Source of the DNA: Candidatus Omnitrophota bacterium
GTDB lineage: Bacteria > Omnitrophota > Gorgyraeia > JAFGHF01
NCBI GenBank assembly: GCA_016939375.1
Contig: JAFGHF010000019.1
Coordinates: 1 to 43,055, forward strand
DNA length: 43,055 nucleotides
Direction of reading: 5' to 3'
Shown: in pieces, positions 1-4,399 of the stretch
How positions within the stretch are numbered: the stretch's first letter is position 1
How the letters are laid out: each line of letters opens with the position of its first letter
The notes under the pieces: generated by a model
What the model was told of the DNA's origin: nothing
The model's database searches: none
What the model saw: only the letters and a program-made list of their open reading frames with translations
Translations under genes and position numbers: made by a program

Positions 1-1226
1 ATCTGGATATTACGGGCAATAGAAAGTTCTTTCTCGATAAGCTCGCGCGTCTGCAGCTCTTTTATATAGCGGAAAAGGCTGCTGCCCAGATAGGTCAAGA
101 TGTATATCAATATCGGCAGGAACAGGTCGATCCACAGACCAAATAAAAGAAAGAGTAAAAAGCCAAACCCTACAAATAAGACCAATGTACCTAACCGGAA
201 AAGGATGCTCTTAGGCGGCCTCATCTTAAGGGCGATAAGCAGATTCAAAAGACAGATGATAAATAAAATCGCTAAGTTCAGCGCTGGCGAAGCGCGCCTG
301 AGGAAACTTTTTGTCACGATAGAATTGTAAAGATTGGCGTGCATGCCTACCATGGGATAGACCGGCTCAAGGGCGTTGGGGTTAATATCAGCTGTGCCGG
401 TAGCAGTCAATCCGACAAAACAGACCTTATCTTTTAAGCTGTGTAATTTAGGCGGGATCTCGCCCTGGGCGCCGACCTCATGGGCGTAAGTAATGAGGAT
501 ATCGCTGTAGGAATAATGGACAAATGTATCCTCCCATTTGCCGGCAAGATTTATAAGTGCCGCTCCTTCATCATCGACAGGGATACGGATATCATCGCCC
601 AACTTTATATATCTTCCCGGCCGCATCTGGATGTTTTCTTGCGAAAACCCCAAGATATCCAATGCAGCTTTAAAGGTAAGGTGGGGCAGAAGTTCTTTAT
701 CGTATTCTACCAAAAGAGGGATACGTCTTCGCTTTCCGTCCCTGTCAGTAAGGATATTGGCAAAACCGCTGCCGCAAGCGGCATCCTCTAATTCAGTTAT
801 TATAGTAGCATCATACTTGGGAGAACGCCAAAAACCGCCTCTTACATCTCCTAATTCCAGCGAATAGGGATAATAGACATTTCCCGCCTGCGCGGTCGCT
901 TCAGTCAATAATGCGTCGTTTACTGAAGGCTCGCTGAAAATAACATCAAAGATAACTGCTTTTACCCCACAGCGGGAAAGTACTTTGATAAGCGTAGCGT
1001 GGTAATCTCTGGAGATCGGCCAACGGCTAAGTTTGGTCAGTGTATCGTTTCCGATCTCGATAATGGCGACATTGGGGTCAATTTTTTGAATCGGGCGGGT
1101 CTTAAAGCGCAGATCTAAAAGGACAAGTTCATAAGCCTCAAAGAGGCGAAAGTACGAGGCGCATCCTACAATGAGGACTAGGACTGTGAAAATAAAGGTT
1201 AAGCGCGCAGGCCTGGATACTCTTAT
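1..1226 (-). CDS. CHASE2-domain sensor, probable SpoIIE-type phosphatase (C-terminus off the window)
   Basis: The reading frame stays open from about 1226 to the left edge. Seen: one N-terminal membrane segment, a long extracytoplasmic region, then three hydrophobic helices ending in a cytoplasmic linker. This is the standard CHASE2 topology. The last visible residues (EKELSIARNIQ) match the linker that commonly precedes SpoIIE/PP2C phosphatase domains (RsbU-like); the catalytic domain itself is outside the window, so that part is inference. It is the last visible gene of the Mla/partner-switching operon and would be the natural phosphatase for the STAS protein at 3519-3851. No ATG, GTG or TTG exists in frame near the N-terminus. 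The best start is an ATA overlapping the mlaD stop (ATAA), with GAGGAAGAAG just upstream. An adenylate cyclase or kinase output domain remains possible. Confidence 0.75.
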   Translation of the reverse strand, partial: MRVSRPARLTFIFTVLVLIVGCASYFRLFEAYELVLLDLRFKTRPIQKIDPNVAIIEIGNDTLTKLSRWPISRDYHATLIKVLSRCGVKAVIFDVIFSEPSVNDALLTEATAQAGNVYYPYSLELGDVRGGFWRSPKYDATIITELEDAACGSGFANILTDRDGKRRRIPLLVEYDKELLPHLTFKAALDILGFSQENIQMRPGRYIKLGDDIRIPVDDEGAALINLAGKWEDTFVHYSYSDILITYAHEVGAQGEIPPKLHSLKDKVCFVGLTATGTADINPNALEPVYPMVGMHANLYNSIVTKSFLRRASPALNLAILFIICLLNLLIALKMRPPKSILFRLGTLVLFVGFGFLLFLLFGLWIDLFLPILIYILTYLGSSLFRYIKELQTRELIEKELSIARNIQ

Positions 1227-1894
1227 TGGTCTTCTTCCTCGTCTTCTTTAGGTTTTTGAGACTTGCTTTTGCGGATGAGTTTCCAAGGGTGCCATTTAAT
1301 ATCCTCACTAAAGGATTTGACATTTTCTGAAGTGATGACCAGGTTTTTGAGCATTTGGTCCAGATCTTCCCGGTGTACCATGATGACTTCATTTACTCCG
1401 CCTGTAAGCTTACGAAAATCGGTGATGGCGTTATCCAGATTATTAGCGATCTCCTCACCCTTTTCGATAAATTTGGCGGTATCAAACGGTTCCCGGCCTA
1501 TGATCAGGCTGTTGGGCTTTAAAAATACCGACTCCGCGGAGCCCGCTGTCAGCTCTACATACTTCTCTCCCATCAGCCCCAGGGTAGTCACAAAGGCCTC
1601 GGAATCCTCGCGCACCTTGGCATCTTCCTGCAGCCACAATGTAAGCAACACATGCGTACCTTGTTTGTCGTATATCAGGCTGATATTTTTTACCTTTCCT
1701 ACCTCTACCCCCGAAAGGCGCACGGGCGCATCTTTTTCTATGCCGCTGGAATTAATGAAAGCCACTCTTAAGTCATATCCCCCCTTGGAAAAAGAGAATT
1801 TATTCACTCTATAAGTAAGGGCCAACAGAGCGACTACAGATAAAATAACTACAAGGCCTATTAAAAAATCATTTGTCCTTTTAATCTTTACCAT
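1223..1894 (-). CDS. mlaD: MlaD-like MCE-domain lipid-binding protein
   Basis: Periplasmic substrate-binding component of an Mla-type phospholipid transporter, anchored in the inner membrane. The 223 residues show an N-terminal signal-anchor helix (about 10-28) and then an MCE domain (about 37-115) with the family pattern around GIEKDAPVRLSGVEVGKV and LMGEKYVEL. A helical tail carries a WHPWKLI motif, common in MCE proteins of this type, and an acidic end. It lies 19 bases downstream of mlaF and overlaps the CHASE2 gene. At 223 residues it is longer than E. coli MlaD, the excess being the C-terminal helix. No MlaC or MlaA homologue is visible in the window. The family assignment is firm; the transported lipid and direction are not shown. 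Confidence 0.9.
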   Translation of the reverse strand: MVKIKRTNDFLIGLVVILSVVALLALTYRVNKFSFSKGGYDLRVAFINSSGIEKDAPVRLSGVEVGKVKNISLIYDKQGTHVLLTLWLQEDAKVREDSEAFVTTLGLMGEKYVELTAGSAESVFLKPNSLIIGREPFDTAKFIEKGEEIANNLDNAITDFRKLTGGVNEVIMVHREDLDQMLKNLVITSENVKSFSEDIKWHPWKLIRKSKSQKPKEDEEEDQ

Positions 1895-1913
1895 TTTAAA
1901 TCCTCCTTGAGGC

Positions 1914-2708
1914 TTACTGTGTTAAATGTTCTAAATAGTCGTCGCCTTTTGTCAAAAACTGTATCGGCCCTTCCACATCACCGGCAATAAACTGCTGCAC
2001 GATAGGGTTGGTGGAATTTTTAATCTCTTCCTTCGTGCCTATCTGCAATATTTTTCCCTTATGCAACATAGCTATTCTGTCGGCGATACGAAACACGCTG
2101 TTCATGTCATGCGTGACCACCACTGAAGTGATCAGCAATTTTTTACTTAAATCTATCATCAATTTATCGATGACTGCGGTGACTACCGGGTCTAAGCCGG
2201 CGGAAGGTTCATCATAAAATACAATATCGGGGTCCATGGCGATGGCCCGGGCCAGGCCTACACGTTTTTTCATCCCTCCGGATAACTCACTGGGCATGTG
2301 GTTCTCGAATCCCCGCAAACCCACCAGACCTAATTTCATCTTCACCATGATCTTTATGATATCAGGGGCTAATTTAGTGTGTTCTTTAAGCGGCAGACTC
2401 ACGTTTTCCTCTACGCTTAAGGAGTCTAGAAGTGCCGATGACTGAAAAAGCATGCCAAAACGTTTCTTTATTTCGTCCATCCCGTGCGTGTCCAATTGGG
2501 TGATATCCTTGTCTTTAATGCGCACCTCTCCAGAATCAGGTTTAATCGCCCCGATAAGATGGCGCAGGAGCGTGCTCTTGCCGCACCCGGAACCGCCCAT
2601 GATCACGAATGTCTCGCCTTCATAGACCTCCAGATTGATGCCATCGAGGACACGGCGGTTGCCGAACGTCTTGATCAGATTTTCTACTTTGATTACTGTT
2701 TTTGCCAT
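1914..2708 (-). CDS. mlaF: MlaF-like ABC transporter ATPase
   Basis: Cytoplasmic ATPase that powers the MlaE permease. All ABC motifs are intact: Walker A GGSGCGKST (residues 38-46), Q-loop Gln89, signature LSGGMKKRV (142-150), Walker B IVFYDEPSAGLDP (from 162) and the switch histidine in VVVTHD (His200). The length (264) suits MlaF. It begins one base after mlaE ends, so the two are translationally coupled. In E. coli a STAS protein, MlaB, binds MlaF and is needed for activity. The STAS gene two positions upstream makes similar control plausible here, which is inference. Confidence 0.93.
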   Translation of the reverse strand: MAKTVIKVENLIKTFGNRRVLDGINLEVYEGETFVIMGGSGCGKSTLLRHLIGAIKPDSGEVRIKDKDITQLDTHGMDEIKKRFGMLFQSSALLDSLSVEENVSLPLKEHTKLAPDIIKIMVKMKLGLVGLRGFENHMPSELSGGMKKRVGLARAIAMDPDIVFYDEPSAGLDPVVTAVIDKLMIDLSKKLLITSVVVTHDMNSVFRIADRIAMLHKGKILQIGTKEEIKNSTNPIVQQFIAGDVEGPIQFLTKGDDYLEHLTQ

Positions 2709-2709
2709 T

Positions 2710-3507
2710 TTATATGTTTAGAAAATAAAAGATACCGGTTAACAAACAGTCTGCGAGGATAATCAGGATAAAACTGGAGACAACACTGACCGTTGTGGAA
2801 CGGCCTACCCCCTCAGCTCCTCCTGAAGCGTTTAAACCCTCGTAACAGCCTACTATTGCAATGATTACCCCAAAGATCATCGATTTAAAAAGACCGGTAT
2901 AGATATCCTTAAGCAAAAGGAATTTTACGGTCATATTCATATATAGACCGGGGTTTATTTTCAGGCTAAAGTAGCCGATAATAAAGCCTCCTAACATTCC
3001 CATTACATCGGCAAGTATAGTTAAACAGGGCATCATCACCAGCAAACCCAAAAAGCGAGGCACGGCCAGGAAACGCACCGGATTTATGGCCATTGTATCC
3101 AGGGCCTCGATCTGCTCATTGACTTTCATACTTGATATTTCGGCGGTTATAGCTGAACCCACGCGGCCGGCGACCACTAAGGCTGTGAACACAGGGCCTA
3201 ATTCCCGGGCCATGGATACCGCGACTAAAGTAGCTACCAGGGACTTGACCCCAAACTGCACCAGCTGATATGCACTCTGCATAGCCAGCACAATGCCGGT
3301 AAAAAGGGCGACAAAAAATACAATTATAACAGAGTGTACTCCGGAGAAGGCCATTTGGTTTGCGGTAGACCTCCAGGAAAAAGGCTTTCTAACAAAAGGC
3401 CCTACAAAAATCCAATAAATGACCTGTAGAAATAACCTTAGCTCGCCCAATGCCTTCTCAAATGGTCTTCTGAAAAAAGCGCCTATCTGTTCAATAAAAG
3501 ATATCAT
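2710..3507 (-). CDS. mlaE: MlaE-like ABC transporter permease
   Basis: Inner-membrane permease of the Mla-type transporter. The 265 residues carry an N-terminal amphipathic stretch and about five membrane helices. The MlaE signature region is seen: ARELGPVFTALVVAGRVGSA followed by EISSMKVNEQIEALDTM, then GCYEGLNASGGAEGVGR before the last helix. It sits 11 bases after the STAS gene and one base before mlaF. The family is unmistakable. Whether it moves phospholipid outward, inward or carries another hydrophobic substrate cannot be read from sequence. Confidence 0.93.
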   Translation of the reverse strand: MISFIEQIGAFFRRPFEKALGELRLFLQVIYWIFVGPFVRKPFSWRSTANQMAFSGVHSVIIVFFVALFTGIVLAMQSAYQLVQFGVKSLVATLVAVSMARELGPVFTALVVAGRVGSAITAEISSMKVNEQIEALDTMAINPVRFLAVPRFLGLLVMMPCLTILADVMGMLGGFIIGYFSLKINPGLYMNMTVKFLLLKDIYTGLFKSMIFGVIIAIVGCYEGLNASGGAEGVGRSTTVSVVSSFILIILADCLLTGIFYFLNI

Positions 3508-3518
3508 AAGTCCTCAAT

Positions 3519-3851
3519 TTAAAAATCTTTAAGGGCCTCTTCTTCGCTGGGAAAGATACCAAAGAGCCTGTCCAATTTGGTTATTTCAAAAAGGCCTCTT
3601 ACTTTATCGGTAAGGTTGGTAAGGCGCAGGGTCCCGCCGAAACGCTTCATCCGCTGCATCATCTCTACCATCGTGGCCAAACCGGAGCTATCGATATACC
3701 CCACCTCTTCAAAGTTGAGCAAGATTTTCTTTTTCTGCTCTTTAATCAATTTGTCAAAGCACTTGCGTACATCAGGCGAGGTGTTTATATTTATCTCACC
3801 CGATAAGTCCAATACCATCACATCCCCTTCATTTCTTTCTTTTACGGACAT
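3519..3851 (-). CDS. STAS-domain protein (anti-sigma factor antagonist / MlaB-like)
   Basis: A single STAS domain of 110 residues. The phosphorylation loop is canonical, YIDSSGLAT, with Ser56 in the position of the serine phosphorylated in SpoIIAA/RsbV proteins. It lies between an RsbW/SpoIIAB-type kinase gene (14 bases upstream) and mlaE (11 bases downstream). Two roles are therefore possible: classic anti-anti-sigma factor released by dephosphorylation, or the MlaB subunit of the transporter. A combination, in which phosphorylation gates the transporter, would be new. The domain call is sure; the partner is not. Confidence 0.92.
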   Translation of the reverse strand: MSVKERNEGDVMVLDLSGEININTSPDVRKCFDKLIKEQKKKILLNFEEVGYIDSSGLATMVEMMQRMKRFGGTLRLTNLTDKVRGLFEITKLDRLFGIFPSEEEALKDF

Positions 3852-3865
3852 CTTTCATGCCCCCT

Positions 3866-4264
3866 TTAGGTTTTGGCGAAATATTTGGTCATTGTTATCT
3901 TATTGCCTTTTTCATTAAATTCGACTTCATCCATTACTTTGCGGATAAGAAAAAGCCCCCGTCCCCCGGTCCTTAATAGATTCTTAACATGCCGGGGATC
4001 AGGTAAATTGGCGTAGTCAAAACCTTCCCCCTGGTCTTCGATACTAATGACTATCGCATCCGTTCTGACCTCAAAGTTTATTAGCACTTCTTTGCCGTCA
4101 TCCGACTTATTGCCGTATTTAATGGCGTTGATTATCGCTTCTTCACAGGCCAATCTGATGTCATAAAGAAACCCGTCATCCAGCTCTTTGCCATTCAAAG
4201 AATCCAGGATCGTATCACTTGCCGCTTTTACTTTTCTTACATTACTGGGGATCTTCAGTTCCAT
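3866..4264 (-). CDS. RsbW/SpoIIAB-type serine-protein kinase (anti-sigma factor)
   Basis: A small GHKL ATPase of 132 residues with the N-box EEAIINAIKYGN (Glu42, Asn46), the G1 box DQGEGFD (Asp77) and the G2 box TGGRGLFLIRKVMDEV (99-114). In this family the protein phosphorylates a STAS partner and sequesters either a sigma factor or, in variants, another target. It is the first gene of the operon, behind a strong promoter and a hairpin. No sigma factor gene is seen nearby, so the controlled partner is unknown. Ribosome binding is weak (AAGAACG before ATG). Confidence 0.9.
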   Translation of the reverse strand: MELKIPSNVRKVKAASDTILDSLNGKELDDGFLYDIRLACEEAIINAIKYGNKSDDGKEVLINFEVRTDAIVISIEDQGEGFDYANLPDPRHVKNLLRTGGRGLFLIRKVMDEVEFNEKGNKITMTKYFAKT

Positions 4265-4281: not shown

Positions 4282-4309
4282 AAAAAAGGCGCAATAGGCT
4301 TCTTGCGCC
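4282..4309 (-). terminator. Intrinsic terminator in the leader of the kinase-STAS-Mla operon (candidate attenuator)
   Basis: On the minus strand a perfect 7-base stem, GGCGCAA and TTGCGCC, with an 8-base loop, is followed directly by six T. It lies downstream of the promoter at 4371-4399 and 18 bases before the kinase start, so it would stop most transcripts unless overridden. An upstream AGGCTT in the leader can pair with AAGCCT in the loop, a possible alternative fold. A 27-codon frame (4357 to 4274) runs across the hairpin but has no good ribosome-binding site. Confidence 0.6.
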
Positions 4310-4370: not shown

Positions 4371-4399
4371 ATTTTACCACCCTTTGCTTTTTGTGTCAA
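4371..4399 (-). promoter_or_regulatory. Promoter of the kinase-STAS-Mla operon
   Basis: TTGACA (4399-4394), a 17-base spacer and TAAAAT (4376-4371) on the minus strand closely match the housekeeping sigma consensus. The start would be near 4364, giving a leader of about 100 bases that contains the hairpin at 4288-4309. Confidence 0.7.

Follow-up and report, generated by a model that had tools for sequence, protein, structure and literature searches.

An operon pairing a partner-switching module with an Mla-type lipid transporter in Omnitrophota, and the probable direct control of the transporter by the switch

The stretch of DNA analysed here (43,055 nucleotides, hereafter the window) is the entire contig C38 of a Candidatus Omnitrophota genome of 1.74 Mb that is 93% complete. 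At its left edge an operon on the - strand, running from position 4264 to the contig end, encodes a serine kinase, a STAS protein, the transporter subunits MlaE, MlaF and MlaD (together MlaEFD) and a CHASE2 sensor. We consider it probable that this partner-switching module directly regulates the ATP-binding cassette (ABC) lipid transporter rather than a sigma factor; the parts are known, the output is new. A sequence-only reading of the window had described these six genes as one operon and had linked the STAS protein to the transporter. Domain matches place all six genes on the - strand as described, and the proposed link is, at the level of sequence, well supported. The genes are, in the order of the operon:

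3866..4264, - strand: RsbW/SpoIIAB-type serine kinase (GHKL, 132 residues; PF13581 HATPase_c_2, 102 bits)
3519..3851, - strand: SpoIIAA/RsbV-like STAS protein (110 residues), with DSSG at residues 54-57 (PF01740, 79 bits)
2710..3507, - strand: MlaE permease (PF02405, 266 bits)
1914..2708, - strand: MlaF ATPase with a C-terminal arm (F251, Y258, L259, L262); best structural match 6xgy_A (E. coli MlaFB)
1223..1894, - strand: MlaD, an MCE-domain protein of 223 residues (PF02470, 71 bits)
1..~1226, - strand: CHASE2 sensor, N-terminal half, running off the contig (PF05226, 88 bits, for the part after 908)

From kinase to STAS, MlaE, MlaF and MlaD the intergenic gaps are 14, 11, 1 and 19 nucleotides, and CHASE2 directly adjoins MlaD. 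For a wider survey, a contig scan with the kinase alignment was pooled with 99 related genomes. MlaE of this type is present in 37 of the 99, and the kinase gene adjoins it in 36 of these 37 (in two of them across a contig break). The pooled set holds 50 distinct Omnitrophota loci with the STAS gene and this MlaF, and order and strand are identical in all 49 that have the full five genes; the kinase-STAS-MlaEFD grouping first noticed in the window is not a chance layout, because the same order recurs in these 50 loci. Five loci of other families outside the class show the same order as well, with weak kinase matches (64-72 bits). The MlaE proteins linked to kinase and STAS form one clade (support 100/100; 99 in the Shimodaira-Hasegawa-like approximate likelihood ratio test after adding other classes), and most of these genomes hold a second MlaEFD set that has neither kinase nor STAS and whose MlaE falls outside the clade. 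Beyond Omnitrophota, where the search consisted of the kinase scan, candidates from Planctomycetota were rejected; their kinases lie outside MlaE operons, the nearest MlaE being on the opposite strand and 3-4 kb away (L133, L139).

What ties the STAS protein to the transporter is the arm of MlaF. In Escherichia coli, MlaB, the STAS subunit, binds the helical subdomain of one MlaF and also Tyr261, Leu265 and Leu266 in the C-terminal arm of the MlaF next to it (PMC7367683). Tyr258 of the window's MlaF aligns with E. coli Tyr261 of this arm, and 20 relatives all keep F251, L259 and L262, and nearly all keep Y258. An arm motif, GPxxF, occurs in all 52 MlaF proteins of kinase/STAS loci and in none of 43 others, which comprise 42 from STAS-less loci with the other type of MlaE plus that of locus L037; the arm in other classes reads FKQTSEAYLKGLL or similar. 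The length of the arm does not by itself split the two MlaF groups, it is the sequence motif that does, and in a monomer model of MlaF the arm contains a short helix (residues 258-263), with low confidence there. L037 (genome G081) is instructive in that its MlaE lies inside the clade while kinase, STAS and MlaF arm are all gone. Since the arm marks the MlaF proteins of kinase/STAS loci without exception and is absent from all the rest, it provides independent support for binding between STAS and MlaF. In L037 the place of kinase and STAS, directly upstream of MlaE, is taken by a single receiver-domain protein (L037:5032-5412), which may feed another phospho-signal into this transporter.

The association of arm and STAS bears on an alternative that we regard as unlikely, namely that the genes are only co-transcribed, the module then acting on a sigma factor or on some other target that is not seen here, and the STAS protein never touching MlaF. 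Classical partner switches do target sigma factors. The sigma factors of this genome, with classes assigned by eye, are RpoD, one RpoD-like protein (L048) and two extracytoplasmic function (ECF) factors, each ECF gene being followed by one for a cysteine-containing anti-sigma-like protein; the RpoD-like factor has no known regulator, which speaks for this explanation, as do the few lineages that keep kinase and STAS, with or without CHASE2-PP2C, and lack this MlaEFD. Against it, the MlaF arm tracks the STAS gene in every case, the two having been lost together in G081, and the gene order is fixed across classes. Moreover, no sigma factor of the SigB/SigF type was found beside the operon or in the genome (searched by contig pieces), which agrees with the sequence-only reading, where no sigma factor was visible, and none of the sigma factors present is a fitting candidate for that role.

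Some observations do weigh against direct control of the transporter. Kinase and STAS genes stand without this MlaEFD in families f28 and f5 and in genomes G176 and G121 (L170/L171, L045/L173, L185 and L189), and most of these loci also carry CHASE2-PP2C; in such transporter-less lineages the kinase-STAS module may act, or may once have acted, on something else. For G121 and f28, one reading is that the transporter has been lost, because the genes on either side are like those around intact loci. The genome further contains one other, non-adjacent STAS protein (contig C53) that could be a second substrate, and the model of the operon's STAS protein has a fifth strand and a C-terminal helix, both absent from E. 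coli MlaB. In E. coli, the MlaB mutation T52A abolishes ATPase activity (PMC5016091), so that phosphoregulation of the corresponding site may not be simple.

The STAS protein itself is nearest, in sequence as well as in fold, to RsbV and SpoIIAA; most of its top matches are kinase complexes, and E. coli MlaB is a weaker match. Against the NCBIfam mlaB model it scores 29 bits, where the cut-off is 90; we propose it as an MlaB equivalent. The DSSG motif recognised by the sequence-only reading is at residues 54-57. The phosphosite named there, Ser56, has to be moved by one residue: it is Ser55 that aligns with the SpoIIAA phosphosite and with Thr52 of E. coli MlaB, and in the SpoIIAA mutant structure 1tid it is the first Ser of the motif that is replaced by Ala. 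Ser55 is thus the phosphosite predicted by homology; it starts helix 2 in the AlphaFold model (predicted local distance difference test score, pLDDT, 93). Ser or Thr is kept at this site in all 50 STAS proteins, 49 times as DSSG and once (L024) as DTAG.

The kinase is conserved as well. Its N, D and G boxes are invariant across 15 relatives (E41, E42 and N46; D77, G79 and G81; G101, R102 and G103), its nearest solved relative is RsbW (6m36), and it is the sole close match of its kind in the genome. In genome G062, kinase and STAS are fused in one protein of 246 residues next to MlaEFD (L029:5049-5789); this fusion is a ready construct for structural work.

These features make it most improbable, in our view, that the STAS protein is a constitutive structural subunit in the manner of MlaB, with kinase and phosphatase acting elsewhere or being of weak relevance. 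Such a role would fit E. coli MlaB, a protein required for assembly and for which no kinase is known (PMC7367683, PMC5016091). The STAS fold here is nonetheless nearer to SpoIIAA/RsbV than to MlaB, the phosphosite is kept in all loci, and the kinase gene adjoins the STAS gene in 36 of the 37 genomes that have this MlaE, the two being fused in L029.

The third component of the switch is divided by the contig end. The sequence-only reading had expected a phosphatase domain past the left edge of the window, and a SpoIIE/PP2C half was indeed found opening contig C20 (L005:3-674; PF07228, 173 bits; stop at base 674). This half lacks its first residues and begins LPQGLKGTDICVDMNTAKHVGGDLYDF, complementing the end of the CHASE2 frame on C38 (...LSIARNIQ). 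In the nearest relative, G003, both halves are contained in one protein of 638 residues (locus L042); the C38 half aligns with its residues 2-409 and the C20 half with residues 416-635. We therefore join C38 and C20 on the basis of the complementary truncation and the full-length relative, from which the piece between the two contigs would amount to about six codons, some 14 bases being unassembled; a comparison of the two contig ends gave no sequence overlap. A search of the genome by contig pieces gave just one SpoIIE domain besides this, within a separate and complete frame of 463 residues. The acidic motifs GGDLYD, GDVSGKG and TDGVTE of the relatives' phosphatases are all present in the C20 half.

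The start of the CHASE2 gene is less certain. Its frame is open from about position 1247 and contains no ATG, GTG or TTG before 908, a position inside the domain; judged by the alignment to L042, the gene begins at or close to an ATA (1224-1226) that overlaps the MlaD stop, and this would be either a rare start codon or an assembly error. Families f21 and f35 have no adjacent phosphatase gene; the three genomes of these families that were read each encode a CHASE2-PP2C-like protein at another site, its CHASE2 part recognised by eye.

Based on this, we suggest the following mechanism. The dephosphorylated STAS protein would take the place of MlaB and dock on MlaF by way of the helical face around Ser55 and of the arm contributed by the adjacent MlaF, and this docking would stabilise and activate the MlaF-MlaE-MlaD complex. 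The RsbW-like kinase would phosphorylate Ser55, or trap the STAS protein in an ADP complex, so that it leaves MlaF and transport falls; CHASE2-PP2C would sense an envelope signal and dephosphorylate the STAS protein, and transport would be switched on again. In E. coli, Thr52 of MlaB is near the centre of the MlaB-MlaF interface and T52E weakens binding, and phosphorylation at the corresponding site of SpoIIAA disrupts partner binding (PMC7367683); kinase and MlaF are for both these reasons expected to compete for one face of the STAS protein. Judging from the transporter family, the lipid carried would be phospholipid.

The polarity could in principle be the reverse, the kinase binding and inhibiting MlaF or MlaE and the STAS protein serving only to draw the kinase away. 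This would match the topology of the classical switch, in which RsbW binds the sigma factor, and kinase and transporter are after all co-encoded; we still find it very unlikely, as what is known to bind the arm is a STAS protein and not a GHKL kinase (PMC7367683).

As to the signal read by CHASE2-PP2C under the mechanism of direct STAS control, about half of the loci that have CHASE2-PP2C contain, between MlaD and CHASE2-PP2C, a gene for a FecR-domain protein, in most cases accompanied by one for an outer-membrane beta-barrel. The cassette is seen at L007:4301-6132, with equivalents in L008, L009, L016, L017, L028, L035, L091, L094 and L140, and in the window's genome FecR protein and barrel are found further along contig C20. 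We speculate, with rather less than even confidence, that the state of the outer membrane is passed by the FecR protein and the beta-barrel to CHASE2-PP2C and from there to the MlaB-like STAS protein, as a post-translational switch of the lipid ABC transporter to which the kinase adds a reading of ATP/ADP.

With the RsbU-RsbW-RsbV and SpoIIE-SpoIIAB-SpoIIAA systems of Bacillus (sigma-B and sigma-F) the operon shares the kinase, the DSSG-type STAS protein and a sensor-phosphatase of the SpoIIE family; it differs in having no sigma factor in or near it, an ABC lipid transporter as output and CHASE2 as sensor. With MlaFEDB of E. coli, Pseudomonas aeruginosa and Acinetobacter baumannii it shares MlaE, an MlaF with the MlaB-docking arm, MlaD and a STAS protein in one operon, but the STAS protein is SpoIIAA-like and below the mlaB cut-off, and kinase and phosphatase are added. 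Neither MlaC nor MlaA had a match in the genome at its 93% completeness. Partner switches with known or proposed outputs other than an anti-sigma factor are found in Bordetella (BtrU/V/W) and Vibrio (SypE-SypA), and they resemble the present case in that kinase and phosphatase switch a STAS protein outside any classical anti-sigma circuit; to our knowledge, none of them acts on an ABC transporter.

In the open-licence literature searched there was no report linking a partner switch to an Mla transporter. Two groups have proposed phosphorylation of MlaB, neither naming a kinase (PMC5016091, PMC7367683), and how the active level of MlaB is regulated has been called an open question (PMC7367683). 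With kinase, substrate, sensor-phosphatase and transporter co-encoded across the phylum, the question of MlaB phosphorylation becomes directly testable. If our proposal is true, partner switching, besides controlling genes, would also act directly on a membrane transporter. An ABC transporter would then for the first time be the output of such a switch, and a way of phosphoregulating MlaB-type subunits would be revealed.

Upstream of the kinase gene are two further candidate elements:

4371..4399, - strand: probable sigma-70 promoter, TTGACA-17-TAAAAT (11 of the 12 consensus positions agree; pattern match only)
4288..4309, - strand: terminator-like hairpin with a T tract, between promoter and kinase

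The distance from the promoter to the kinase gene is 100-140 bases. The hairpin is a possible attenuator or small RNA, and an Rfam search of the kinase leader matched no RNA element; L041 has a comparable hairpin ahead of its kinase gene, and there it could simply be the terminator of the upstream gene.

Two loci seen in passing carry switches of other kinds. In genome G092, a second partner-switching set of two PP2C proteins, a kinase and a STAS protein (L175:2512-6077) is unrelated to Mla. In G085, a PP2C protein and a kinase are encoded directly upstream of a multi-spanning membrane protein (L174:2938-6287) that by eye resembles a cation-proton antiporter, and this is possibly another transporter-linked switch.

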